Positions 221-14,215 of a DNA stretch of 18,414 bases are shown here, one piece after another. This DNA comes from a bacterium. GTDB lineage: Bacteria; JAHJDO01. The notes beneath the pieces were generated by a model, which saw only the letters and a list, made by a program, of their open reading frames with translations, was not told the origin of the DNA and searched no databases. The position numbers and the translations under genes are program-made. Position 1 is the first letter of the stretch; the number at the start of each line of letters is the position of its first letter. Location: NCBI GenBank assembly GCA_030611945.1, contig JAUWOV010000033.1, forward strand, positions 1 to 18,414. Direction: 5' to 3'.

Positions 221-1729
221 GTGGCAAAGAGCAAAAATTATATAGCTGTTGACTTGGGTGCAGAAAGCGGACGAGTTATACTTGGCAAATTTGATGGGAA
301 GAAAATAGTCCTTGAAGAGAAACATAGATTTACTACAGGAGGCACAAGGCTTAATAACACAATCTACTGGGACGCAATAAATTTTTTTAATGAGATAAAA
401 AAAGGATTACAAAAGTGCAACAACTCTAAAATCTCCGCAATTGCTTTTGACAGTTGGGGCGTAGATTTCGGACTTATTGATAAAAACAACCATCTATTGG
501 AAAATCCTGTGCATTACAGGGACAGTCGTACTGATGGAATGATGGAAGAATGTTTCAAAAAAGTGCCGCGAGAGGAAGTGTTTGAAAGAACAGGTACTCA
601 GTTTATGCAAATAAACACACTTTATCAACTGTTGTGGATGAGAATAAATCAGCCCTACCTTCTTAAATCGGCTGATTGTCTCCTGCCAATAGCAGCCCTG
701 TTTAGCTATTTTTTCTCAGGAGAAAAAACATCGGAATTTACTCTGGCTACCACTACTCAATGTTATGATCCGCTCAAAAACGGATGGAGTAATGAAATTC
801 TGGAAAAATTGGATATTCCTCGCAAAATAATGCCGCAAATTGTAAATCCCGGGACAGTCACGGGGAAATTGATGCCGTTCATAGCTAAAGAGTTAAAAAT
901 ACCGCAAATTCCTGTAATAGCTACTGCATCGCATGATACGGCTGCAGCAGTTGCGGCTGTTCCTGCGGAAGGTAATAACTGGGCATTTTTAAGTTCCGGC
1001 ACATGGTCTTTAATGGGATGTGAAATAAGCAGTCCATTGATAAATCAGGAAGTCTTGAAAAATAATTTTACTAATGAAGGAGGCGTAAACAATACATTTC
1101 GTTTTCTAAAAAACATCATGGGTCTCTGGCTGGTTCAGGAATGCAAAAGAAGCTGGGAATCTCATGGGGAAGAACTCCCCTACTCTGCACTTACAAAGGA
1201 GACAGAAAAGGCAAAAGCATTTCTCTGTTTTATCGATCCCGAAGATGTAAGTTTTCTCAAGCCGGGTAATATGCCGAAAAAAATACAGAACTACTGCCGC
1301 AAAACGAATCAAAAAGTTCCTTCAGATAAAGGAAGTATCATGCGCTGTATCATGGAAAGTCTGGCATTTAAATATCGCCAGGTTCTTGAAAAACTTGAAG
1401 AAATGCGGCAGCGAAGAATAGATGTGCTCCACATTGTCGGCGGAGGAATACAAAACAAGTTTTTATGCCAATTAACCGCAAATGCCATAAAAAAATCTGT
1501 TATTGCAGGACCTGTTGAAGCAACAGCAGCCGGTAATATTTTGGTACAGGCTATTGCAACAGGCGAGCTCTCATCCGTTAAACAGGCAAGAGAAATTGTT
1601 GGAAACTCGTTTGAGCTCATCAGGTACGAACCCGAACAAACAGATATATGGGAAGAAGCTTATCAAAGATACAAAAATCATAAACTTAACGGGTCAGGCA
1701 CGCCTGCCCACTACATTAGAAGAAACTAA
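221..1729 (+). CDS. rhaB: FGGY-family sugar kinase, rhamnulokinase type (probable L-fuculokinase role here)
   Basis: This 502-residue protein would phosphorylate a 6-deoxy-ketohexose (L-rhamnulose or L-fuculose) at O1 with ATP in the cytoplasm. Length and layout fit the FGGY family. The N-terminal phosphate loop reads VDLGAESGRV (about residues 10-19). FDSWGVDFGLID lies near residues 77-88, and the general-base Asp of SHDTA is D239. The C-terminal adenosine motif GGGIQNKFL lies near residues 406-414. The sequence looks like RhaB rather than enteric FucK. However, the operon carries fucI, a fucosidase and a fuculose-phosphate-type aldolase and no rhamnose isomerase, so L-fuculose is the likelier substrate (inference). 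GTG start with AGGAG 6 bases upstream. Its stop abuts the ATG of the next gene, so translation is probably coupled. Confidence 0.85.
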   Translation: MAKSKNYIAVDLGAESGRVILGKFDGKKIVLEEKHRFTTGGTRLNNTIYWDAINFFNEIKKGLQKCNNSKISAIAFDSWGVDFGLIDKNNHLLENPVHYRDSRTDGMMEECFKKVPREEVFERTGTQFMQINTLYQLLWMRINQPYLLKSADCLLPIAALFSYFFSGEKTSEFTLATTTQCYDPLKNGWSNEILEKLDIPRKIMPQIVNPGTVTGKLMPFIAKELKIPQIPVIATASHDTAAAVAAVPAEGNNWAFLSSGTWSLMGCEISSPLINQEVLKNNFTNEGGVNNTFRFLKNIMGLWLVQECKRSWESHGEELPYSALTKETEKAKAFLCFIDPEDVSFLKPGNMPKKIQNYCRKTNQKVPSDKGSIMRCIMESLAFKYRQVLEKLEEMRQRRIDVLHIVGGGIQNKFLCQLTANAIKKSVIAGPVEATAAGNILVQAIATGELSSVKQAREIVGNSFELIRYEPEQTDIWEEAYQRYKNHKLNGSGTPAHYIRRN

Positions 1730-2836
1730 ATGCAAAAAATGAAAGCCGCTTTTTTATATGCAGACAGATCAAAACATATTGAAATTGAAAATGTTGCAAA
1801 ACCTGTCTGTAAGCAGAATGATGTTCTTATAAAGGTCTCTGCCTGTGCGATCTGTGGAACAGACGGGAGAATGTACGAAGGAACAAAAGATGCCACTAAA
1901 GGATCTTCCCCACAAATCAGGGGATATGGTAAAGGCAAATTTATTATAGGGCATGAAATCGTAGGAATTATAGAAGAAATTGGTTCTGAAATTAAAAATC
2001 AGGAATATGAGGTTGGAAGCAAAGTAATTCTGGTAACTTCCATAGGCTGCCAAAAAGAAGAGTGCAGACCTTGCAGAGAAGGCAACTATAATATGTGCGC
2101 TAACAACCAGCCTATTGGGTACTATTATCCCGGAGGTTTTGCCGAGTACATATTGGTTCAGGATCGCGCTGTGAAACAGGGCGTTATAATACCTGTTCCG
2201 AATGAGAGTCACGTTTCAGATGAACATCTGGCAATGGTCGAACCACTTTCCTGCGCAATAAACGGGCAGAGTTATCTAAACATTCAAAGAGGAGAATATG
2301 TTGCCGTAGTAGGAGCAGGTCCTATTGGTTTGATGCACTGTCTATTGGCAAAAGCCAAGGGAGCAAAGGTTATACTGGCTGAATATTCTGAAGAGAGACT
2401 CGAAAAAGCAAAAGAATTTGGTTTTGACCATTATATTCCTACTAAAGATACTGATTTAATTCAGAATATATCAGAAATTACTAAAGGCGAAGGTATTGAC
2501 GTTGGAATAGTTGCATGCTCCGTTAGTAAAGTAGCAGAAGATCTTTTAGTGGCAATGGCTATGAAAGGAAGATTGAGCTTTTTTGCCGGATTCCCAAAAC
2601 AGAATTCCGTTTTAAAATTGGATGGGAACATAATTCATTATAAAGAAGTCTCTATTTACGGAGCGTTTGCTTCAAATAAGGCGCAATTTGGAGAAGCTTT
2701 AAAGCTGATTGTCAGCAGAAAAATACTTATGGATAAAATAGTTACACATACATTCCCTTTAGAAAATATAGTTGAAGCTATGGAAAAAATGCTGGATAAA
2801 AAAGGCAACGCCTTAAAAGTAGTTATAAAACCGTAA
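1730..2836 (+). CDS. Zinc-dependent medium-chain alcohol dehydrogenase
   Basis: 368 residues, the usual length for sorbitol/threonine-dehydrogenase-like MDR enzymes, which oxidise or reduce polyols with NAD(P). The catalytic zinc ligands are visible: C42 in the CGTD motif, then H75-E76 in GHE, and E171. A structural-zinc loop has four cysteines (C107, C112, C115, C123). Its first gap is four residues instead of the usual two, so the lobe is slightly enlarged. The Rossmann motif GAGPIG (about residues 194-199) is intact. The start directly follows the kinase stop; a second in-frame ATG at 1739 is also possible, and neither has a strong ribosome site. Next to fucose genes it might reduce L-lactaldehyde to 1,2-propanediol, or oxidise a fucose-derived polyol. 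The substrate cannot be read from sequence. Confidence 0.8.
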   Translation: MQKMKAAFLYADRSKHIEIENVAKPVCKQNDVLIKVSACAICGTDGRMYEGTKDATKGSSPQIRGYGKGKFIIGHEIVGIIEEIGSEIKNQEYEVGSKVILVTSIGCQKEECRPCREGNYNMCANNQPIGYYYPGGFAEYILVQDRAVKQGVIIPVPNESHVSDEHLAMVEPLSCAINGQSYLNIQRGEYVAVVGAGPIGLMHCLLAKAKGAKVILAEYSEERLEKAKEFGFDHYIPTKDTDLIQNISEITKGEGIDVGIVACSVSKVAEDLLVAMAMKGRLSFFAGFPKQNSVLKLDGNIIHYKEVSIYGAFASNKAQFGEALKLIVSRKILMDKIVTHTFPLENIVEAMEKMLDKKGNALKVVIKP

Positions 2837-2866
2837 AAAAACACAAATAATAGGAGTTTAAATAAA

Positions 2867-3661
2867 ATGTCACAACCTAGTTTAAAAGACAAAACAGTTT
2901 TAGTAACTGGCGCAGGACAAGGATTCGGAGAGGCTATAGCAGCATATTTTGCAAAACAGGGATGCATGGTAGCTGTTGCAGACATATCAGAAAAAAATGC
3001 AGAAAAAGTAGCTGGAGAAATAGAAAAAAAACATGGAACCAGGGCAATTGCGATAGGAGTAGATATAACGCAAGAAACCCAAGTAATCAATATGTTTGAG
3101 AGAATTGAGAGAGAATTTAGGAATCTGGATATATTAGTCAACAATGCTGGAATTCTTATTGCAAAGGAAATAACGGAATTTACTCTGGAAGAATGGGAAG
3201 AAGTGATTGATGTAAACCTTATTGGCTATTTCCTGTGTGCTCGCGAAGCGGCAAAGATAATGAAAAAACAAAAGAACGGAGCAATTATACAGATCAACTC
3301 TAAATCCGGCAAAAAAGGCAGTTTTAAAAATTCCGCGTACGCTTCCTCCAAATTTGGAGGAATAGGACTAACTCAAAGCATTGCTCTGGATCTGGCTCCA
3401 TACGGCATAAGAGTCAATGCGGTTTGTCCCGGTAATTTTCTTGATTCTCCTTTATGGAAAAACAGTCTCTTTGACCAGTATTCAAAAAAATGGGGCATTT
3501 CAAAAGAAGAGGTAAGAAAAAAATATATAGAACAAGTTCCATTAGAAAGAGGCTGTGCCTATGACGATGTTATTAATGTAGTAGCTTTTCTGGTAAGTGA
3601 TGAGGCCTCTTATATAACAGGTCAGGCAATAAATGTAACCGGTGGACAGGAAATGAGATGA
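2867..3661 (+). CDS. Short-chain dehydrogenase, sorbitol-6-phosphate 2-dehydrogenase-like
   Basis: 264 residues, classical SDR. The N-terminal cofactor motif is TGAGQGFG (about residues 14-21), then NNAG, then the catalytic S145, Y158 and K162 (YASSK). The tail GQAINVTGGQEMR closely matches the end of SrlD-type sorbitol-6-phosphate dehydrogenases, as does the ALDLAPYGIRVNAVCPGN stretch. The cofactor is probably NAD, as an acidic residue ends beta-2 (VADIS). A good ribosome site (TAGGAG) precedes the ATG. The stop overlaps the ATG of the LacI remnant as ATGA. The last 38 bases of this gene recur at 8105-8142, which makes it a rearrangement landmark. Its likely role is polyol or sugar-phosphate oxidation in the fucose route. 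Substrate is inferred only. Confidence 0.8.
   Translation: MSQPSLKDKTVLVTGAGQGFGEAIAAYFAKQGCMVAVADISEKNAEKVAGEIEKKHGTRAIAIGVDITQETQVINMFERIEREFRNLDILVNNAGILIAKEITEFTLEEWEEVIDVNLIGYFLCAREAAKIMKKQKNGAIIQINSKSGKKGSFKNSAYASSKFGGIGLTQSIALDLAPYGIRVNAVCPGNFLDSPLWKNSLFDQYSKKWGISKEEVRKKYIEQVPLERGCAYDDVINVVAFLVSDEASYITGQAINVTGGQEMR
3624..3661 (+). repeat. Direct repeat copy 1 (3' end of the SDR gene)
   Basis: This 38-bp stretch begins AGGCAATAAA and ends AATGAGATGA. It encodes the last 11 SDR residues and the stop. It matches 8105-8142 at 36 of 38 positions. Both differences (T/C at 3634 and 3643) are silent third codon positions, in AAT/AAC and GGT/GGC. Confidence 0.9.
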
Positions 3662-3990
3662 AAATGAAACCAATGCCAACAGCGATATTTGCCGCGGATG
3701 ACATTTTAGCCTTAGGGGCATATGATGCAATAATAAAAGCTGGTTTAAGAGTGCCTGATGATATTGCATTGGCTGGGTATGCAGATTTGAGAGAAGCCGT
3801 GGAAATAGATGTGCCTTTAACCACTGTGCGTCAACCAGGTTATGAAATGGGGAAGGCGGCATGTAAAAGACTTATTGAGAAAATCAAAAATCCGAAGAAT
3901 AATAAGGACAAGAAGATGGTTTTTAAAACTGAACTTATAATTAGAAAGTCCTGTGGAAACGGGACAGCACAAAGAAAGGGCTTGACGTAA
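3658..3990 (+). pseudogene. LacI-family regulator, C-terminal fragment only
   Basis: An open frame of 110 codons matching the last third of a LacI/GalR repressor. It shows TAIFAADD, ALGAYDAI, GLRVPDDIALAGYAD, then PLTTVRQPGYEMGKAA and the closing ELIIRKSC. A complete family member is about 330-350 residues with an N-terminal helix-turn-helix. Here the DNA-binding domain and the first effector lobe are gone. Homology starts at once after the SDR stop, whose TGA overlaps the fragment's ATG (ATGA, 3658-3661). The frame is free of stops and could be translated by coupling. Without a DNA-binding domain it cannot act as a normal repressor. It is best read as a truncated gene left at a recombination junction. 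A free effector-binding subdomain is possible but unlikely. Confidence 0.8.
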
Positions 3991-3991
3991 A

Positions 3992-5047
3992 ATGTCCTAT
4001 AAAAGCGGAATGGCAGCATTAAATCTTGAATTTACAGATACTGTTCCAAGAACAGAGTATTCTGCAGAATTTCATTGGCCATTAATAAAAAAAGTTACAG
4101 GAATTGATACGGCTAAAGAAGAAAATAGGAAAGAAGCAAGCAGGGAGTTTATAAAGAAATGGGATTATGCGTTTATGTGGCATACAGTAATAGGGTCTTC
4201 TGAACTAAAAAAACGTGGCAGAGTGACAAAAATGGGACACGCTGCATATCAAGAAGGAGGAACAGATTTTGATACAGAAGTTAGCTGTCCTTTCAAGGAT
4301 GTAGAGGATGTTTTAAATTTTGATCCTTATGAGGAGTATGGAGAGGTTGATATAAACGAAATTATCAGGGAAATTGAAGGCGATTATGAGGTTCAGAAAA
4401 CAACATATAAAGATACTGTATCAATGGGCGGAGTTTATATTACATTATTCTCCGGTTTTATTGAAATTTTTGGCTGGAACATGTTCCTTTTGGCGGCTGG
4501 TACGGACATAGATAGATTTGATAAGGTAATAGAGAGTTACTACAGATGGATAAAACAGTATTACATTGCATACGCAAAGTCTAATGTGCCTGTTTTTATG
4601 TGTCATGATGATATATGCTGGACAAGCGGGTCTGTAATGTCTCCGGACTGGTACAGGAAAGCCATCTTCCCACGTCTTAAAAAACTGCTTGAGCCCTTAC
4701 TTGAGGCAGGAAAGAAAATAATCTTTACATCAGATGGAAACTATACGGAATTCTTTGATGATATTGTGGATTGCGGTGCGCATATGCTTGTAATGGAACC
4801 TTCGTGTGATATGAAGCTGTTTGCAGATAAATATGGAAAAACGCATGGTTTTGTCGGAAACGCAGACACAAGAATACTTCTTTCAGGAACAAAGCAGGAT
4901 ATATATAATGAAGTGAAAAGATGTATGCATATAGGTAAAAAATATCCTGGCTTTATAATAGCAGTAGGAAATCATATTCCTTCAAATACACCTGTGGATA
5001 ATGTTTTATACTATAACGAAGCATATCTTGAACTCAGGAAAAGATAA
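3992..5047 (+). CDS. Uroporphyrinogen-decarboxylase-family (URO-D/MtaA-like) protein
   Basis: 351 residues with the URO-D-type TIM-barrel pattern. Examples are CHDDICWTSGSVMSPDWYRK in the middle, GFVGNADTRIL near residues 287-297, and the closing FIIAVGNHIPSNTPVDNV. The family includes haem-pathway decarboxylases and corrinoid methyltransferases. This member lies in a sugar operon with no tetrapyrrole or corrinoid gene nearby, so haem synthesis is not a sensible assignment. Related proteins often sit in carbohydrate clusters of environmental bacteria with unknown activity (general knowledge). It starts one base after the LacI remnant stop, with AAAGGG about 12 bases upstream, and is followed by the fucosidase. 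It may act on a sugar-derived or methylated substrate. Function unassigned. Confidence 0.7.
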   Translation: MSYKSGMAALNLEFTDTVPRTEYSAEFHWPLIKKVTGIDTAKEENRKEASREFIKKWDYAFMWHTVIGSSELKKRGRVTKMGHAAYQEGGTDFDTEVSCPFKDVEDVLNFDPYEEYGEVDINEIIREIEGDYEVQKTTYKDTVSMGGVYITLFSGFIEIFGWNMFLLAAGTDIDRFDKVIESYYRWIKQYYIAYAKSNVPVFMCHDDICWTSGSVMSPDWYRKAIFPRLKKLLEPLLEAGKKIIFTSDGNYTEFFDDIVDCGAHMLVMEPSCDMKLFADKYGKTHGFVGNADTRILLSGTKQDIYNEVKRCMHIGKKYPGFIIAVGNHIPSNTPVDNVLYYNEAYLELRKR

Positions 5048-5061
5048 AACACACAAAAACA

Positions 5062-5067
5062 AGGAGG
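5062..5067 (+). promoter_or_regulatory. Strong ribosome binding site for the fucosidase
   Basis: AGGAGG lies 8 bases before the ATG at 5076. This favours 5076 over the in-frame ATG at 5001, which would overlap the preceding gene by 47 bases. Confidence 0.8.
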
Positions 5068-5075
5068 ATAATACA

Positions 5076-6383
5076 ATGCTTAAGCCTGAATTTACAGCAG
5101 GAAAAACAGACTGGTTTGTTCATGACCGTTTTGGTCTGTTCATTCACTGGGGAATTTATGCAACTGCTGCCCGTCATGAATGGGTTAAAAACTATGAGAA
5201 AATAACGGAGGAGAAGTATCAAAAATACTTTAACCATTTTGATCCTGACCTGTATGATCCGGATGCTTGGGCAAAAGCAGCAAAACATGCGGGGATGAAA
5301 TATGCTGTGCTGACGACCAAGCATCACGACGGCTTTTGTCTGTGGGATTCTAAACTGACTGATTACAAAGCAACGAATACTCCTGCAGGACGTGATCTTC
5401 TTAAACCGTTTGTTGAAGCGTTTCGGAAGCAGGGAATTAAAATAGGTTTCTATCATTCACTTATTGACTGGCATCATCCGGAATTCCCAGTTGATTTTAA
5501 CCATCCGCAGAAGGATGACGAAGAATTTAAGAAAAAAGAAACTAACCGTGATATCAAGAGATATGCTGAGTATCTGCACGGCCAAGTAAGAGAGCTTATG
5601 ACAGAATTCGGGAAAACAGATATCCTCTGGTTTGATTTTTCCTATAGCCGGGAACAGAACGGTATGAAAGGTAAGGGTAAAGAAGACTGGCAGTCTGAGA
5701 AATTACTTAAGATGATCAGGGAACTTATGCCGGATATAATAATAAATAACCGTCTGGAAATAACCCAGGATATCCATACACCGGAGCAGTTTCAACCGCG
5801 TGAGTGGGTTCATGTAGATGGAAAACCTGTTGTATGGGAGGCATGCCAGACGTTGAACGGGAGCTGGGGTTATCATAGAGATAGCTCGGGAAATTTTGGG
5901 GATAACTATCTTGTATGGAAGACATCAGAAATGCTGATAAAGATGCTGATCGATACGGTCTCCAAAGGTGGAAACATGATATTGAATGTCGGACCCACAG
6001 CAAGAGGGCAGTTTGAACCAAAGGCTTTGGAAAGACTGCGTGATATAGGTGAATGGATGAAACTTCATTCCCGTTCTATTTATGGCGCAACTCAGAGTGA
6101 ATTCAAGCCGCCTCAGGATTGTAAATTTACTCAAAATGGAAATCGTCTTTATCTGCACATTTTTTCGTGGCCATTTAAACACATTCATCTTGATAACATG
6201 GCAGACAAGGTTGAATATGCTCAACTCTTAAATGACGGCTCAGAGATAAAAATACAAGGGCATGACCTAAAGGGAGAACATTCTTCCTTGTCTGAAAAAA
6301 TAGATTCTAAAATATTAACATTGGAATTGCCGATACAAAAACCGGATGTAGTTGTACCTGTTATTGAATTGTTTTTAAAGTAG
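5076..6383 (+). CDS. Alpha-L-fucosidase, GH29
   Basis: 435 residues from the ATG chosen by its AGGAGG site. GH29 enzymes hydrolyse alpha-L-fucosides with retention of configuration. Diagnostic stretches include FGLFIHWGIYA and ARHEWV near the N terminus, TTKHHDGFCLWDSKLT, and GFYHSLIDWHHPEF. The DILWFDF segment holds the probable nucleophile D187, and GNMILNVGPTARG closes the catalytic barrel. A small C-terminal beta domain follows. There is no signal peptide, so the enzyme should act in the cytoplasm on imported fucosylated oligosaccharides and release fucose for FucI, encoded next. Spacing to fucI is 14 bases, consistent with one transcript. The acid/base residue cannot be assigned reliably by eye. 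Confidence 0.9.
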   Translation: MLKPEFTAGKTDWFVHDRFGLFIHWGIYATAARHEWVKNYEKITEEKYQKYFNHFDPDLYDPDAWAKAAKHAGMKYAVLTTKHHDGFCLWDSKLTDYKATNTPAGRDLLKPFVEAFRKQGIKIGFYHSLIDWHHPEFPVDFNHPQKDDEEFKKKETNRDIKRYAEYLHGQVRELMTEFGKTDILWFDFSYSREQNGMKGKGKEDWQSEKLLKMIRELMPDIIINNRLEITQDIHTPEQFQPREWVHVDGKPVVWEACQTLNGSWGYHRDSSGNFGDNYLVWKTSEMLIKMLIDTVSKGGNMILNVGPTARGQFEPKALERLRDIGEWMKLHSRSIYGATQSEFKPPQDCKFTQNGNRLYLHIFSWPFKHIHLDNMADKVEYAQLLNDGSEIKIQGHDLKGEHSSLSEKIDSKILTLELPIQKPDVVVPVIELFLK

Positions 6384-6397
6384 GAAAGGATTATAAA

Positions 6398-8113
6398 ATG
6401 GCAAGTGTAAAAGCAAAAAGATTAACTTCCCTAAACAAAGCTGATCCGAAAACTCCTATCATTGGCGTTTTTGCTACAAGCGACCCGAGGATTGATAAGG
6501 CAAGCCGCACGCGCTGTCAGAATATTGTTGAGATGGTTGCAAATACTATCTCGGGTAGGATTTACCTGCCTGATAAAAAATCTGTTGATGTGGTTTATTC
6601 AACAGTTCTAATAGACGGCGAGAGGGAGGCAGATATTGTTGCCAGGCAGTTCCGAGAAGCAGGTGTGGATATTCTTGTGTGTGTTCCGGATACATGGGCA
6701 TTTCCTCAATTAACACTTATTTCATTACTGCAGCAGTTCCCGAATAATACACCAATAAATATTACATGCGGCAACAGTGCTCCCAAACCAGGCGTTGTGT
6801 TTGCCCAGGCTGTTAATGGAGCTATTTCTCAGTATGGACGTATGGTGCATATGAATATTGGAACTTGGCCGGATACAGGAATCAGTCCAAAAATGACAGC
6901 AAAGACAGCTAATAATCTTATTGACTGGTGCTACGGAGCTATTACAGCCGTTGGTTTAAGAGGAAGACGCGTTGTTATATTCGGGCATGACTCTATGGGA
7001 ATGGAAACAGCCTTAGCGCATATTCTTCCCACGAGAAATACATTCGGCATAGAAGTTGCGCGTCTGGATATGAAACTGCTTGCTGATATGCTTAATAAGA
7101 AAGCATACAACAAAAAGGAACTGGTTGAACTAAGGAAATGGTTGGATCGCAATGTTGGAGATCGAATTGAATTACGGAATAAGGATGATGAAGAAAAATT
7201 CAATCAGAGTCTTGCAATGTATCTTATAAACAGAGATTTATTAAATGATTTAAATGCCGTAGGCGGTGGATTTATGAGCCAGCTGGAATGGGGCTCTGAC
7301 CCTCGCGGTATTCCTTTGCCTGTTGCGGATGTAATGGAATCTCTGTTTAATTCAATCTTTGATCATAATGGGCCAAAAGCCCCTATTCCATACGCTACAG
7401 AAGCTGATGTGCAGGGTTTATTAACCATGCTTTTTATGACATATCTGAGCGGCGGCAATCCTCCATTATTCATGGATTTTCGCAAGGTCTGGGAAATTGA
7501 AGAGCTCAAAGCATTGGCAAAAAAACTTAACGTAAAATTGAGTGGAAACAAATTATGGGAGAAGAAAGGGATAGTGGACGGCGATAATTCAGGAAGCGCA
7601 TCCTTTGATTGGGCAGCAAAGCCCGGCACAGAGATTAAAGAGATTATGTCTAAATGCAGATTTCCTTTAGCAGACCCTTATTATTTTCCTGGCGGCGGTA
7701 ATTCAGTAAATTATGTTTCGCCGGGCGGAATAAAGGGAATTGCAGCTAGATTGTCTTACAGCACTATCAGTGGCTTATTCTCAATGGTCTGGGATGAGGC
7801 TTCTACTGCTGAGCTTCCAGCCAAACTTTGTGACGCTGTTTGTAATGCTTCTACGCCAACATGGCCCCACACATTTGTTGTCCCGAAATACGCAAGTATG
7901 CTTGAATATAAACAATTTGCACCGGCAAATCATTTTCATATGACATGGAACCTGCATCCTGCACGACTTGAATACTGGATGGATCTGACCAATGTTCTTT
8001 CTATTACTCCATGGCAGGCAAGACCAAAGTTTATTGAGGGAGTTGATAGGTCAATACCTCTGATTTATCTTCAGAACGGTGGTGAGAATAATACAAAGCT
8101 TCTTAGGCAATAA
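6398..8113 (+). CDS. fucI: L-fucose isomerase
   Basis: 571 residues, near the roughly 590 of the enteric enzyme. It would convert L-fucose to L-fuculose in the cytoplasm with a divalent metal, usually Mn. Predicted metal ligands sit where expected: E335 in TEAD, D360 in FMDFR and H512 in ANHFH. The N-terminal domain begins with GVFATSDPRID, and EAGVDILVCVPDTWAFPQ follows. A ribosome site (AAAGGA) precedes the ATG. The TAA stop lies inside the 38-bp SDR-tail repeat (CAA-TAA at 8108-8113), so the natural end of the gene may have been replaced at the junction by a stop supplied out of frame by SDR sequence. At most the last few residues are affected. The product looks functional. Confidence 0.93.
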   Translation: MASVKAKRLTSLNKADPKTPIIGVFATSDPRIDKASRTRCQNIVEMVANTISGRIYLPDKKSVDVVYSTVLIDGEREADIVARQFREAGVDILVCVPDTWAFPQLTLISLLQQFPNNTPINITCGNSAPKPGVVFAQAVNGAISQYGRMVHMNIGTWPDTGISPKMTAKTANNLIDWCYGAITAVGLRGRRVVIFGHDSMGMETALAHILPTRNTFGIEVARLDMKLLADMLNKKAYNKKELVELRKWLDRNVGDRIELRNKDDEEKFNQSLAMYLINRDLLNDLNAVGGGFMSQLEWGSDPRGIPLPVADVMESLFNSIFDHNGPKAPIPYATEADVQGLLTMLFMTYLSGGNPPLFMDFRKVWEIEELKALAKKLNVKLSGNKLWEKKGIVDGDNSGSASFDWAAKPGTEIKEIMSKCRFPLADPYYFPGGGNSVNYVSPGGIKGIAARLSYSTISGLFSMVWDEASTAELPAKLCDAVCNASTPTWPHTFVVPKYASMLEYKQFAPANHFHMTWNLHPARLEYWMDLTNVLSITPWQARPKFIEGVDRSIPLIYLQNGGENNTKLLRQ

Positions 8114-8142
8114 ACGTAACCGGCGGACAGGAAATGAGATGA
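8105..8142 (+). pseudogene. Direct repeat copy 2: orphan 3' tail of an SDR gene
   Basis: In frame from 8107 this reads AINVTGGQEMR then stop, identical in protein to the end of the SDR gene at 2867-3661. The DNA differs only at two silent positions. Here it overlaps the fucI stop at one end and the PHP gene ATG at the other (ATGA, 8139-8142). It is too short to be a gene. It marks the place where an SDR gene once ran directly into the PHP gene. GGACAGGAAATGAG also provides that gene's likely ribosome site, which may be why it persists. Confidence 0.85.
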
Positions 8143-9329
8143 TAGAAGAACTAGAAACTCGTCTTGATAATTTTGATAAAAACGTAAGAAAAAACGCCCT
8201 CTTAGAACTTATCAAACTTAAAAAAGACGGAAAAGTTAAATGGGCAGAGGAAAAAGAAATTTCAAATATGCATTGTCACAGCTTTTTTTCATTTAATGGG
8301 TATGGATACTCGCCAATAAAGATAGCGTGGATATGCAAGAAAAATGGCATTAAGCTCTGCCAAATAGTGGACTTTGATGTTCTGGATGGAATTGAAGAGT
8401 TTTTTTATGCAACTGACCTATTAAATTTAAGAGCGTCTGTAGGGATAGAAACCAGAGTTTTTATCCCTGAACTTAAAGATAAAGAGATAAATTCTCCCGG
8501 AGAGCCTGGAATCTACTACTTAATGGGCGTGGGATTTACAAAACTTCCATCTCCTGAATCCCCTGCCAATAAGATATTAAAAGATATGTCTCATCGAGCA
8601 CATATGCGAACAAGAAAAATGGTCGATATGTTGAATGATTATCTGAGCGACATAAGAGTTGAGTATAATACAGACGTTATTCCATTGACTCCAAATGGCA
8701 ACGTCACGGAAAGACACATCTTAAGAGCCTTTTATAATAAATCAAAAGATGTTTTTCAAAACACCGAAAGCTTCATCAGATATTGGACATCAAAACTTTC
8801 CGTGCAGGAAAAGGATATCAGTAATGGTCTGGATAATCCCCATGTTTTATGCGGAATAATTCGTCCAAAGCTTATGAAAAAGGATGGGATTGCTTATATA
8901 AAACCCACCTCAGCGACCTTTCCAGAGGTTCAAACAGCAAATAAAATGATAACAGAATTGGACGGAATACCATGCGCAACATGGCTTAATGGACTCTCTG
9001 ACGGTGAGAAAAATCTGGAGGAATTACTTGATCTATTAATCAGCAAGGGAATTTCAATGATGAACATAATCCCTGATAGAAACTATAATATAAGGAATCC
9101 AGATGAAAAAAGGATTAAAGTAAAAAATCTCTATAAAGCTGTGGAGATTGCAAAAAAGCTTAATCTTCCTATAATAGCAGGCACAGAAATGAACAAGTTT
9201 GGACAGAAACTTGTTGATGATTTTAATTCCGAAGAACTAAGTCCAATCAGAAAAGTTTTCATGGATGGGGCATATTTTTTACATAACCATACATTAAGGC
9301 AAATTGGAGAAAGGGAAAAAGCAAAATGA
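8139..9329 (+). CDS. PHP-domain-like metalloenzyme of unknown substrate
   Basis: 396 residues from the ATG at 8139, chosen because it sits in the ATGA overlap with the SDR tail and has a purine-rich site upstream. The longer frame from 8079 would overlap fucI. A short N-terminal helix leads into a PHP-type start with H45 and H47 (NMHCHSF). The usual TDHD motif is VDFD here (78-80 DFD), so one canonical histidine is Phe. E104 (GIE) sits where a metal-ligand glutamate is expected. Later stretches include HRAHMRTRKMVDML and, near the C terminus, GTEMNKFGQ and LHNHT. PHP proteins are usually phosphoesterases. Its place before the aldolase, with a 4-base overlap, suggests sugar-phosphate work. A lactonase or other hydrolase is also possible. 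Confidence 0.6.
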   Translation: MIEELETRLDNFDKNVRKNALLELIKLKKDGKVKWAEEKEISNMHCHSFFSFNGYGYSPIKIAWICKKNGIKLCQIVDFDVLDGIEEFFYATDLLNLRASVGIETRVFIPELKDKEINSPGEPGIYYLMGVGFTKLPSPESPANKILKDMSHRAHMRTRKMVDMLNDYLSDIRVEYNTDVIPLTPNGNVTERHILRAFYNKSKDVFQNTESFIRYWTSKLSVQEKDISNGLDNPHVLCGIIRPKLMKKDGIAYIKPTSATFPEVQTANKMITELDGIPCATWLNGLSDGEKNLEELLDLLISKGISMMNIIPDRNYNIRNPDEKRIKVKNLYKAVEIAKKLNLPIIAGTEMNKFGQKLVDDFNSEELSPIRKVFMDGAYFLHNHTLRQIGEREKAK

Positions 9330-9991
9330 AGAATGTTGAACTTAAAAAACAGTTAGTAGAAATCGGTAAGAAGATTGCCGACAAAGGATTGGTTGTAGGT
9401 CCTGGTGGCAACATAAGTGCACGAGTTGACAATATTGTTTATATGAAAGCCAGCGGCATTTGTTTTGAAGAGGCAAAAGAATCAGACTATATAGGGGTTG
9501 ATTTAAAAACCGGCGATATTGTAGATGGAAGCAAAAAACCTACATGTGAAATCGCCATGCATTTAGGTTGTTATCTTGAAAGAAATGATGTCTCCGCGGT
9601 AATTCATACTCATCCTAGTATTGCTACTGCGGTTGGAATGCAGGACGTAACACTTAGCCCTTTTACACCGGATCTTGCCGCATTAGCAGGCAATGTTCCA
9701 ACTATAAAATACGTAGTCCCAGGAGGAAAAGAACTGGCAGAAGAAATAAGAAAGGTTATAAAAAAACATAGCTCTGTCCTGATGTGCAACCATGGGCTGC
9801 TGACTGTTGGCTCAAATCTCAGGGAAGCTTATTACAGAACTCTCCTTATTGAAGATGCTTGCAAAACGTTCGTAGTGGCAAAGTCACTGGGCAGAATGAA
9901 ATTCTTTACAAAAAAGCAAGCAGAACAGATTAATAATATGAAAGCAGAATCTTATAGAAAAATGCTGTTAAAAGAAGAAAAACATAAATAA
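9326..9991 (+). CDS. fucA: Class II aldolase, L-fuculose-1-phosphate aldolase type
   Basis: 221 residues, close to enteric FucA (215). It cleaves L-fuculose-1-phosphate to dihydroxyacetone phosphate and L-lactaldehyde using zinc. GPGGNIS (about 24-30) binds phosphate. H94 and H96 (HTHP) and H156 (NHG) are the zinc ligands, and E75 (KPTCEIAMH) is the catalytic acid. All match the family's order and spacing. The start overlaps the PHP stop (ATGA), so translation is coupled. It ends the catabolic operon; no convincing terminator hairpin follows. The related L-ribulose-5-phosphate epimerase and rhamnulose-phosphate aldolase share the fold, but the fucose neighbours favour FucA. Confidence 0.85.
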   Translation: MKNVELKKQLVEIGKKIADKGLVVGPGGNISARVDNIVYMKASGICFEEAKESDYIGVDLKTGDIVDGSKKPTCEIAMHLGCYLERNDVSAVIHTHPSIATAVGMQDVTLSPFTPDLAALAGNVPTIKYVVPGGKELAEEIRKVIKKHSSVLMCNHGLLTVGSNLREAYYRTLLIEDACKTFVVAKSLGRMKFFTKKQAEQINNMKAESYRKMLLKEEKHK

Positions 9992-10197: not shown

Positions 10198-10370
10198 CGT
10201 GAGGCAAGTCGCGTGGTTGAAAAGAAATAGGCAGTATTATAAAAGTTGTTAGAAAATTTTATGAAAGTCATAAATTACTTGCTCAGTATAAAAAAGCATC
10301 TCGAAAAAATGCCGAACAATCGGTTAAATTTGCTGAATATGTTTCCGAAATTAGTGAAGAGATTATTTGA
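10198..10370 (+). pseudogene. Decayed C-terminal remnant, probably of a GT4 glycosyltransferase
   Basis: A 49-codon frame without any start codon runs from 10221 to the TGA at 10368-10370. It contains IIKVVRKFYESHKLLAQ and then YKKASRKNAEQSVKFAEY. That resembles the closing helices of GT4 glycosyltransferases (pattern AIxxxYxxPELLxxMGxNARxxAE). Just upstream in another frame, 10198-10227 reads REASRVVEKK, like the GEAxxLIEExGxG segment that precedes it in the family. About ten residues seem lost between the two parts, along with a frame change. The remnant overlaps the pglC start by 32 bases, a normal gene order (GT4 then pglC) for glycan loci. Assignment is by eye and tentative. It could be chance sequence, but the absence of any start and the good helix pattern favour a truncated gene. 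Confidence 0.4.
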
Positions 10371-10938
10371 TTTATTTAGCGCCTGCATTGGGTTGATTTT
10401 TCTTGTACCTATTTTGATTGTTGTTGGTATTATTATTAGGTTTAAGATTGGTTCACCTGTTTTTTTTCGTCAAGCACGGCCAGGGCTGAAAAGCAAGCCT
10501 TTTATCATTTATAAGTTTCGCACTATGACAGATGAACGAGATGAAAAGGGAAAATTGTTGCCGGATGGCGTAAGGCTGAGTGATTTTGGGCAGTTTTTGC
10601 GTAAGGTCAGCATAGATGAATTGCCTGAAATTTTCAATGTTATTAAGGGTAATATGAGCATTGTTGGACCAAGGCCTTTGCTTATGCAGTATCTTAATCG
10701 CTATACACCCGAGCAGATAAGACGCCATGAAGTAAAACCCGGGATTACTGGTTGGGCGCAGGTCAATGGCAGGAATGCTATTTCTTGGGAAGATAAATTT
10801 AAGTTGGATGTGTGGTATGTTGATAATTGGTCGCTGTTGTTGGATGCGAAGATTATGTTTATGACTGTTGGAAAAATTTTAAAACGAGAAGGGATTAGTC
10901 AGCCGGGGCAGGTAACGATGGAAGAGTTTTTTGCTTAG
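10339..10938 (+). CDS. pglC: PglC-type monotopic phosphoglycosyl transferase (initiating sugar transferase)
   Basis: 199 residues from the ATG at 10339. It transfers a phospho-sugar, typically UDP-diNAcBac or a related N-acetylated sugar, to undecaprenyl phosphate on the inner face of the cytoplasmic membrane. From this start the protein aligns with Campylobacter PglC without offset. The membrane segment spans about 12-34 with P24, the proline of the re-entrant helix. The catalytic pair is D93-E94 in SIDELPEIFN. YKFRTMTDERDEKG, VGPRPLL, and KPGITGWAQVNGRNAISW are all characteristic. A TTG or ATG start further upstream (10246 or 10261) would add a poorly conserved extension overlapping the upstream remnant. 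No strong ribosome site is visible, so coupling to the old upstream gene is likely. Confidence 0.9.
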   Translation: MFPKLVKRLFDLFSACIGLIFLVPILIVVGIIIRFKIGSPVFFRQARPGLKSKPFIIYKFRTMTDERDEKGKLLPDGVRLSDFGQFLRKVSIDELPEIFNVIKGNMSIVGPRPLLMQYLNRYTPEQIRRHEVKPGITGWAQVNGRNAISWEDKFKLDVWYVDNWSLLLDAKIMFMTVGKILKREGISQPGQVTMEEFFA

Positions 10939-10944
10939 GTAAAA

Positions 10945-11964
10945 ATGCAAGATTTGAAGAATAAAAAAAGGAAAAGAAATTTGATTAGATTGCTGTTTTC
11001 ATCTGCAGGGCGCAGGGTGGAATTGGTCAATTGCTTTAGACAGGCTGCGCGTGGTTTGAATATTAATCTTGAAGTAATTGCAATAGATATGGATCCTTTG
11101 TGGAGCCCTGCTTGTCAAGTGGCAGATTATGCTTATAAAGTGCCTCATTGTACCTCTTCAGATTTTTTAAACGACGTGTTGGATATTTGCAAACGGCATG
11201 AAGTTGATATGATAATACCCACTATTGACACGGAATTGATTGGTTATGCAGAGAATCGAGAACACTTTTCGGAAAATGGAACAGAAATTCTTGTATCCTC
11301 TGTTGATTTTGTTCGTGTAACACGAGACAAGGAAGAAACCGCGCATATTTTAAGTAACAATGGAATATCAGCGCCACGCACTTGGAATATGCAGGACACC
11401 CATAATTTGGAATTCCCGTTGTTAATAAAACCAAGAGACGGATCATGTAGTAACGGTATATATATTGTTAATTCCAAGAATGAATTATTGAGAAAAGATA
11501 TAGATAATGATTTGTATATCGCACAGGAAATCTGTCAAGGAAGAGAGTTTACAGTGAACTGTTTTTACGATCGTTTAAAGGGTTGCGTAGGTTGCGTGCC
11601 ACACTTTCGGAAATTTATGCGTGCAGGAGAAGTCTGCTTTGCGGAAACTGTACGGATTCCCAAATTCAAAGTGTTCGCCGATAAGCTTTATGAGATATTC
11701 TCTGAAATTTATGGGTGCATTTGCTTTCAAGGATTTCAGGATGATTCCGGCAATGTAAGCATTTTTGAAATCAATGCACGCTTCGGCGGTGGGTATCCGA
11801 TTTGTGATAAGGCAGGTGGCACATTCGCAAGATGGATTCTTCAGGATTTACGTGGCGAAGTTCCAGATTATCATAACAATTGGCAAGAGGGCATTCGGAT
11901 GCTTCGATATGATGCGGCTGTATTTATTGAAATAGTCAGGAAGATGCATGCAAGTCATAAGTAA
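10945..11964 (+). CDS. ATP-grasp enzyme of a polysaccharide locus (PylC/CarB-like)
   Basis: 339 residues. ATP-grasp enzymes join a carboxylate to an amine or other nucleophile through an acyl-phosphate. A Rossmann-like N-terminal domain (LLFSSAGRRVELV, then AIDMDPLWSP and IIPTIDTEL) is followed by the ATP-binding lobes. FPLLIKPRDGSCSNGIYIV carries the nucleotide-binding lysine, YIAQEICQGREFTV is the hinge, and FEINARFGGGYPI the metal-binding strand with Glu and Asn. It starts 6 bases after pglC and overlaps the dehydratase gene by 17 bases, so it belongs to this operon. Such proteins are frequent beside PglC-type transferases and may add an amino acid or similar group to a sugar (inference). 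The substrate is unknown. Confidence 0.75.
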   Translation: MQDLKNKKRKRNLIRLLFSSAGRRVELVNCFRQAARGLNINLEVIAIDMDPLWSPACQVADYAYKVPHCTSSDFLNDVLDICKRHEVDMIIPTIDTELIGYAENREHFSENGTEILVSSVDFVRVTRDKEETAHILSNNGISAPRTWNMQDTHNLEFPLLIKPRDGSCSNGIYIVNSKNELLRKDIDNDLYIAQEICQGREFTVNCFYDRLKGCVGCVPHFRKFMRAGEVCFAETVRIPKFKVFADKLYEIFSEIYGCICFQGFQDDSGNVSIFEINARFGGGYPICDKAGGTFARWILQDLRGEVPDYHNNWQEGIRMLRYDAAVFIEIVRKMHASHK

Positions 11965-14215
11965 CAAATACAGAAGAGGCTGGAAGGAAAGTTTAGTCTT
12001 AGCAACAGATATATTCCTTATTATCTTTTGCTATGTAGCTTCTTATTTTATCAGATTTGATGGAATGCCCCCTGAGAAATATCTGGATATAATGATTAAA
12101 ATATTTCCACTTGTGTTGATATCGCAGTTAATGGCTTTATTTTATTTTAAACTTCATAAAAGCATATGGCACTATGCCAGCATAAGAGATTTAACGCAAA
12201 TAATAAAAGCGGTAAGTATAAGTTCAGTGGTAATTGTAGCGTTTGTAATGGTTCTGCACATTGGACATCCGCGTTCAGTGTTTATAATCGACTGGCTGTT
12301 GCTTATTATAGGCTTAAGTGGAGTAAGGTTTATTATCCGCCTTACAAGACCCATTAGGCGGCGACAGTCAAACAGCAACGGGAATGGTCGCAGAAAAAAA
12401 CTCCTTATTGTCGGAGCCGGTGATGCTGGGGAGATGATATTAAGGGATGTAATTTATCGTTATGGCCGAGGTTATGATGTAATTGGCATTATAGATGATG
12501 ACTATAAAAAACATAGAAGGCGCATCCACGGTGTTACAGTTCTGGGAACAAGATCGGATATACCGGACATTGTCAGAAATAAGAATGTAGAAGAAATAAT
12601 TATAGCCATTCCCTCTCTCGCTCCAGACCAGATGCGCGATATTGTAAATTTCTGTATAAAAAGTGGAGCAAAATACAGAACAGTTCCCAGTATTTCTGAT
12701 GTAATTGGCGGAACCATAAAGGTGAAAGAGTTGCGAGAAATAAGGATTGAAGATCTTCTCAAAAGAGATGAAGTGTTTCTCAATAGGGGAAAAATAGAGA
12801 GCTATATTAGGGAAAAAAGTGTACTTATTACTGGCGCTGGCGGCTCAATAGGTTCAGAGTTGGCGAGGCAAGTAGCAAGGTTATCGCCTGGAAAATTAAT
12901 TCTTTTTGAGAAATCTGAAAATGTGCTCTTTTATATAGATATGGAGCTTGGAGACCTTTTCCCTGCTATTCGGAAAACCGCTGTCATCGGCGATATATGC
13001 GATAAAAAAAGAGTAGAAGAGGTATTTGCGAAATGTAAGCCGCAGATTATCTTTCACGCAGCAGCTCATAAACACGTTCCGCTCATGGAGAAAAATTCTA
13101 TGGAAGCAATTAAAAATAATGTTTTTGGGACAAAAGTTATAGTGGATGAGGCTATAAACTGTGGAGTTGAACGGTTTATCATGCTTTCTACCGATAAAGC
13201 AGTTGAGCCTACAAGCCTTATGGGTGTCTCTAAAAAGATTAGTGAGATGCTCGTGACCAGTCTTGCTAAAAAGCACCAAACCAAGTTTATGGCAGTAAGA
13301 TTTGGCAATGTGCTCGGCAGCGAAGGGAGCGTTATTCCCACGTTTAAAAAACAGATAGAAAAAGGAGGTCCTGTTACCATAACCCATCCCGATATAAAAA
13401 GATATTTTATGACAATAGCCGAGGCTGCGGGGCTTGTCATGGAAGCTGGCGCGATAGGACAAGGTGGCGAAATATTCATTCTGGAAATGGGCAGACAGAT
13501 AAAGATAGTTGACCTTGCGCGCGACATGATAAAACTTTCAGGTTTAAAACCGAGTATGGATATTAAGATAAAATTTACAGGTCTGAGACCCGGCGAGAAG
13601 ATGTATGAAGCTCTTATTGCAGACAACGAAGTAATGTTCGCAACGGATAATAAAAAAATAATGGTTTTAGAAGCGCCAAAAGAAAACCAGCATAGTATTT
13701 TTGAGGATATAAAGACTCTGGAGGAAATCGTAGGCGGCAGCTCTATGAATATGCTTATAGAAAAGTTGAAAGAAATTGTTCCGGATTACAGACCAAGTAG
13801 GCAGATTCTCGGCGTTCTTCAAAAGGCAAAGGATCTGGATAGGGAAATAAATATTCTCATTGTTGATGACGAAAAAATAGTTCAGGATTTGCTGCGCAAA
13901 TTTCTGGATGGCAGGGGATATAATACCCTTTTAGCGTCTAATGGAAGAAAGGCACTGGATGTTATCAAAACTAATAACGTGCAGATCGCAATTATTGATA
14001 TAAAGTTGTCCGGATTTATGGACGGTTTGCAGCTGTTAAAACACATAAAGAAGATAAATGGGAATATAGAGGTGATAATAATCACTGGGTTCAGTACCGA
14101 GAGAACAAAGAAGCTCAGTAGACGTTTAGGAGCTTACGCCTATCTTGAAAAACCGTTTGATTTGGCAGATGTAAGAAGACATATTGAAGATGCTTTAAAT
14201 AAAGTGGTATCGTGA
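11948..14215 (+). CDS. Membrane UDP-GlcNAc 4,6-dehydratase (PglF/CapD type) fused to a response-regulator receiver domain
   Basis: 755 residues, about 100 more than PglF/WbpM-type proteins. Four membrane helices lie in about 10-140, then a CoA-binding-like Rossmann domain (LLIVGAGDAGEMILRD, near 153-168). The catalytic extended SDR has TGAGGSIGSE from T295, then T415-D416-K417, with M425 and K429 where ordinary SDRs have Tyr-x3-Lys; the Thr to Met spacing of ten matches PglF. This family makes UDP-4-keto-6-deoxy-GlcNAc, the precursor of bacillosamine, QuiNAc or FucNAc. After the usual closing VPDYRPS and a linker of about 25 residues, a complete CheY-like domain spans about 634-752. It has acidic D640-D641, phospho-acceptor D684, T713 and K735. 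A nucleotide-sugar enzyme carrying an intact receiver is unusual. The gene overlaps the ATP-grasp gene by 17 bases. Confidence 0.9.
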   Translation: MQVISNKYRRGWKESLVLATDIFLIIFCYVASYFIRFDGMPPEKYLDIMIKIFPLVLISQLMALFYFKLHKSIWHYASIRDLTQIIKAVSISSVVIVAFVMVLHIGHPRSVFIIDWLLLIIGLSGVRFIIRLTRPIRRRQSNSNGNGRRKKLLIVGAGDAGEMILRDVIYRYGRGYDVIGIIDDDYKKHRRRIHGVTVLGTRSDIPDIVRNKNVEEIIIAIPSLAPDQMRDIVNFCIKSGAKYRTVPSISDVIGGTIKVKELREIRIEDLLKRDEVFLNRGKIESYIREKSVLITGAGGSIGSELARQVARLSPGKLILFEKSENVLFYIDMELGDLFPAIRKTAVIGDICDKKRVEEVFAKCKPQIIFHAAAHKHVPLMEKNSMEAIKNNVFGTKVIVDEAINCGVERFIMLSTDKAVEPTSLMGVSKKISEMLVTSLAKKHQTKFMAVRFGNVLGSEGSVIPTFKKQIEKGGPVTITHPDIKRYFMTIAEAAGLVMEAGAIGQGGEIFILEMGRQIKIVDLARDMIKLSGLKPSMDIKIKFTGLRPGEKMYEALIADNEVMFATDNKKIMVLEAPKENQHSIFEDIKTLEEIVGGSSMNMLIEKLKEIVPDYRPSRQILGVLQKAKDLDREINILIVDDEKIVQDLLRKFLDGRGYNTLLASNGRKALDVIKTNNVQIAIIDIKLSGFMDGLQLLKHIKKINGNIEVIIITGFSTERTKKLSRRLGAYAYLEKPFDLADVRRHIEDALNKVVS

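Follow-up and report, generated by a model that had tools for sequence, protein, structure and literature searches.

The window, by which we mean the whole analysed stretch of 18,414 nucleotides (G000:C52:1-18414), belongs to an assembly of 1.66 Mb in 119 contigs that is 91% complete. It contains a forward-strand open reading frame that begins with an ATG at 11948, has its stop codon ending at 14215 and encodes 755 amino acids with zero internal stops. The features of this gene and of the run in which it lies are as follows.

10246-10938, forward strand: small monotopic sugar transferase (Bac_transf, PglC-like), 230 aa (PF02397, E 3.4e-64)
10945-11964, forward strand: PylC-like / ATP-grasp protein from the same run of genes (Pfam)
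11948-14215, forward strand: PglF-receiver fusion gene, 755 aa (ORF, Pfam, AlphaFold2 model)
11951-12379, forward strand: four long N-terminal helices (aa 2-36, 43-66, 79-103 and 109-144), read as a transmembrane bundle (model secondary structure)
12380-12688, forward strand: CoA_binding_3 (PF13727) cytoplasmic core, aa ~145-247 (Pfam, model)
12821-13669, forward strand: UDP-sugar 4,6-dehydratase domain (PF02719, aa 292-574) (Pfam, active-site columns, PDB match)
13790-13849, forward strand: C-terminal end of PglF and linker helix (aa 618-633), with no ATG/GTG/TTG (sequence, model)
13850-14212, forward strand: receiver domain of the NtrC class, D640/D641, D684, T713, Y732, K735 (Pfam, residues, tree, class models)

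The 3' end of the ATP-grasp gene overlaps the start of the PglF gene, and the small sugar transferase encoded before it is the probable partner that uses the sugar. Downstream, on the opposite strand, are genes for NDP-sugar epimerase/dehydratase-family proteins and two nucleotide-sugar dehydrogenases. On the other side, a deoxysugar (fucose/rhamnose-type) catabolic gene set at 221-9991 adjoins the glycan-building genes; its products include rhamnulokinase-like, alcohol dehydrogenase-like, SDR, methyltransferase-like, L-fucose isomerase-like and class II aldolase proteins, together with one read as fucosidase-like. At 3658-3990 a short ORF, apparently truncated, resembles the C-terminal portion of LacI-type regulators.

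The enzyme is predicted to be a membrane UDP-GlcNAc-type 4,6-dehydratase of the long PglF/EpsC/CapD form, in which an N-terminal helix bundle and a PF13727 domain precede the PF02719 domain. The four helices of the bundle are read as transmembrane from what is known of the family. Pfam places CoA_binding_3 at aa 80-247 and Polysacc_synt_2 at aa 292-574 (E 1.8e-116), while the large sugar-transferase model TIGR03025 matches the N-terminal half (aa 20-267), a match that reflects the N-terminal module common to PglF and the large transferases. The NAD-binding GAGGSIG loop is present, with the Rossmann motif at 296, and the dehydratase keeps T415, D416 and K417 (TDK) as well as M425 and K429 (MxxxK); across the aligned PglF relatives D416, K417 and K429 are invariant, M425 is nearly so and position 415 is Thr or Ser. 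The best PDB match of this domain is Campylobacter jejuni PglF (42% identity). Our Pfam analysis assigns aa 636-746 to Response_reg (E 2.8e-24), a match far beyond chance that covers profile positions 1-110 of 111, and together with the AlphaFold2 model it gives a full (beta-alpha)5 fold. The residues of a working receiver are complete, namely the acidic pair D640/D641, the phospho-acceptor D684, T713, the aromatic switch Y732 and K735. An earlier note on this DNA had described a full PglF-type enzyme that continues in frame into a complete receiver, and the ORF, the Pfam matches and the residues bear this out, down to the positions of D640/D641, D684, T713 and K735 and the extent of the receiver (~13847-14212).

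The fusion is real and intact. In the AlphaFold2 model of the 755-aa protein (mean pLDDT 93.4, pTM 0.80) the helix at aa 618-633 connects the dehydratase part with the receiver part. No in-frame ATG, GTG or TTG occurs between the VPDYRPS motif and the first receiver strand, and the receiver therefore lacks a usual start codon of its own. The remaining two frames at the junction are full of stops, and codon-position GC is similar in the receiver and PglF parts. A misread frame, or two joined genes, was considered and set aside as improbable on three counts: the stretch offers no canonical start codon, the frame does not change and the composition shows no marked shift. An assembly or consensus error at the junction is likewise unlikely because fusions of this kind occur in other genomes.

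These came to light when 385 genomes from across the domain were surveyed. Of these, 120 have a strong match to PglF, and apart from the window protein a single one, from G228, aligned through the receiver. In its 956 aa the G228 protein joins sugar transferase, PglF and receiver as a triple fusion, and a 1006-aa version of it is encoded in G405, another species of the G228 genus. Both relatives contain a Bac_transf domain, of which Pfam finds none in the window protein chain. The DD, D, T, Y and K residues are all kept in the G228 and G405 receivers, so that the key residues are complete in all three fused receivers. Between G228 and G405, dN/dS is 0.18 for the receiver, 0.13 for the dehydratase, 0.11 for the transferase and 0.68 for the linker, with synonymous sites near saturation and the ratios accordingly rough; the receiver of these fusions is under purifying selection. 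The G405 gene stands in an export locus that encodes Poly_export, Wzz/AAA_31, Wzx- and Wzy-type proteins and glycosyltransferases, with a DegT aminotransferase gene adjoining the fusion, and the G228 locus resembles it. As a separate observation, the dehydratase domain of the G405 fusion (L091:9216-12236) contains an insert of ~30 aa, around SPSPPFGGEGSGEG, which looks like a translated repeat; letters similar to it occur in stray ORFs of L064. The earlier note had proposed a search for homologues that keep both the fusion and the phospho-acceptor Asp, and two species of another phylum have them; confinement of the fusion to this one assembly, which it had held would count against the reading, is thus not the case.

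The PglF-receiver fusion is nevertheless rare. Apart from these, the ~400 other PglF-type loci that were read lack it, a result that we count against phosphorylation-dependent control. Four same-genus genomes gave no PglF match at E 1e-100, and a scan of genome contigs for close homologues with the single window protein returned two unrelated receivers only. Plasmid records contain many PglF genes, none of which, among the matches listed, extends through the receiver. No fusion turned up when small phyla around the best PglF relatives were searched, among the matches listed for a sample around G056, in the phylum of G195, or in the phylum of G179, where the longest open frames were inspected. 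All of these surveys of genomes are samples.

Our comparison with class models assigns the window receiver to the NtrC class (79 bits for NtrX, 72 for AtoC and ZraR, 56 for OmpR), whereas PhoB is the best class model for the receivers of G228 and G405 (120 and 118 bits). In the receiver tree the window domain, on a long branch, groups with NtrC-type regulators encoded in the same genome (85/85); the G228 and G405 domains group with PhoB/OmpR-size regulators (83/90). When this tree was constrained to one common origin of the receivers from the window, G228 and G405, the test spoke against the constraint but did not reject it (p-AU 0.068); the same constraint on the PglF tree gives a p-AU of 0.533. 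Since the receiver classes differ, two or more independent origins of the fusion are probable.

A version with separate genes is found in a third, small phylum. In G038, G183 and G882 (three genus labels, g35, g175 and g447, two of them the same label or close) the gene for a single-domain receiver of 129-140 aa directly precedes PglF in an export operon and has a Wzz/AAA_31-type gene pair on its other side. These receivers retain Asp, Thr and Lys and have Val at the aromatic switch position. Because the operon also encodes a large phosphoglycosyl transferase, the target of the receiver may be either this enzyme or PglF.

PglF was also seen with other C-terminal extensions. An EAL domain (Pfam E ~1e-60) follows it in two genomes of one phylum, G195 (L151:7964-10801) and G1073 (L145:2538-5348, minus strand); the DDFGTGYSS-type motif looks degenerate, and for this reason the domain may be a sensor of c-di-GMP and not an enzyme that cleaves it. 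In the phylum of G179, two genomes (L184:1998-4421 and L180:2659-5259, both forward strand) encode PglF with a common extension of ~100 aa for which there is no Pfam match, and in L066 and L067 (G198 and G329) the translated tail reads as a putative sugar-transferase-like domain.

Long dehydratases with PF13727 and PF02719, such as PglF, EpsC, CapD and WbpM, share with the window protein the transmembrane bundle, the CoA_binding_3 domain, the dehydratase domain and the TDK and MxxxK motifs; however, the ordinary members end soon after the dehydratase domain, without a receiver. Our literature search found no PglF-receiver fusion in the papers it covered, and to that extent the earlier note's statement that no characterised example is known still holds, but it needs qualifying. 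A lone receiver, EpsW, has been shown to bind the sugar transferase EpsZ and so to activate the first step of a glycan, and there are earlier reports of small sugar transferases with a fused receiver (PMC12802240). In Myxococcus xanthus the phosphorylated form, EpsW~P, is the activator of EpsZ, a large phosphoglycosyl transferase, and modelling suggested that it favours an EpsZ dimer through the PF13727 domain of that enzyme (PMC12802240). PglF-type dehydratases and large transferases have the transmembrane bundle and the PF13727 domain in common (PMC10942596), so that in both cases a receiver is associated with an early membrane-bound glycan step whose enzyme has an N-terminal transmembrane and PF13727 module. 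They differ in that EpsW is a separate protein acting on a large transferase, whereas the window receiver is covalently attached to a dehydratase and the neighbouring transferase is small; the window receiver may work like EpsW all the same. The small monotopic phosphoglycosyl transferases that bear a receiver or a sugar-modifying domain (O'Toole et al. 2021, as cited in PMC12802240) likewise include a receiver fused to an enzyme of the initiating steps. As far as that set is described there, the triple fusions of G228 and G405 would belong to it, while the window differs in having the transferase as a separate gene and the receiver on the dehydratase. CapE of Staphylococcus aureus is another PF02719-type dehydratase under phospho-control, activated through tyrosine phosphorylation by the CapAB kinase (PMC6441080); there, however, a tyrosine of the enzyme itself is phosphorylated and no receiver is involved. 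Receiver control of sugar transferases at an early step is thus already known, and the receiver joined to the dehydratase appears to be a new variation on this theme.

We favour a phospho-dependent, dimerisation-type control of the dehydratase. The presence, in one and the same frame, of a complete receiver and a dehydratase whose active site is intact, the confident single-chain model with its helical linker, the constrained and fully equipped receivers of the G228/G405 fusions, the occurrence of two fusions with different receiver classes and the receiver gene before PglF in a third phylum all argue for it. We propose that D684 would receive its phosphate from a small phosphodonor or from a histidine kinase whose gene lies elsewhere, and that the receiver, as is usual in its class, would switch via T713, Y732 and K735 and change its self-association or its contacts with PglF. 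The active oligomer of the transmembrane, CoA_binding_3 and dehydratase body might then be stabilised, a step modelled on EpsW~P and EpsZ and consistent with the N-terminal module that PglF has in common with the large transferases and with the phospho-activation of CapE. By analogy with the EpsC-EpsN-EpsM-EpsL route of Bacillus subtilis, in which a 4-keto sugar is supplied to a transferase (PMC10653937), more 4-keto sugar could flow to the neighbouring small sugar transferase. Switching by phosphorylation and a dimerisation module, which the earlier note had offered as alternatives, are both plausible and may be one and the same thing. What weighs on the other side, besides the rarity of the fusion, is that no histidine kinase was recognised among the ORFs of the window. 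The orphan kinase that the earlier note had suggested looking for was found neither near the window gene nor at related loci of other genomes, and since each of the eight strong kinases in the genome of the window has a receiver on the same contig, none of them stands out as the cognate kinase of the fused receiver. On balance, we put the chances as even that the committed step of the dehydratase is under two-component control through the attached receiver. More tentative is the wider possibility that this step is a direct two-component output, with the independently formed NtrC- and PhoB-class fusions and the conserved receiver-PglF gene pair as forms of a recurrent aspartyl-phosphorylation switch that acts on the first committed sugar of a surface glycan.

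The receiver, phosphorylated or not, could instead serve as a docking or localisation module that places PglF at a pole, by the transferase or by an export complex, and leaves the catalytic rate unchanged. The chain in G228 and G405, which joins small sugar transferase, PglF and receiver in a manner reminiscent of channelling, fits such a role, as does the ability of single-domain receivers to work through protein-protein contact (PMC12802240); a passive dock, however, would not need the phosphorylation and switch residues that 3/3 fused receivers keep, and we regard this explanation as rather unlikely. We also think it quite improbable that the fusion in the window arose as a neutral or recent accident, or reflects a consensus error of one metagenome-assembled genome, and has no selected function: the long receiver branch and the restriction of this fusion to a single assembly, with none in the four same-genus genomes, would suit an accident, but not the completeness of the receiver, the helical linker and the lack of a leftover canonical start codon, nor the fusion in another phylum, which is apparently independent and under purifying selection. 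Least credible to us is a Spo0F-like phosphate sink or relay station on a membrane protein that regulates another system. Spo0F proteins are the closest solved receivers by sequence, and the genome of the window holds many single-domain receivers and a hybrid kinase, but PglF is repeatedly accompanied by a receiver, of differing class and in every case within a set of glycan genes, and this speaks for glycan control.

To our knowledge, little is known of the post-translational control of early steps in exported-glycan synthesis. If phospho-control of the dehydratase is correct, signalling would act on the supply of sugar nucleotides, beyond transcription or the sugar transferase, and cause and effect could be addressed in a single purified protein, switch and enzyme being parts of one polypeptide. 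That a distant phylum has the same join, apparently of separate origin, suggests a capacity of bacteria to couple a signalling switch straight to the assembly of glycans.
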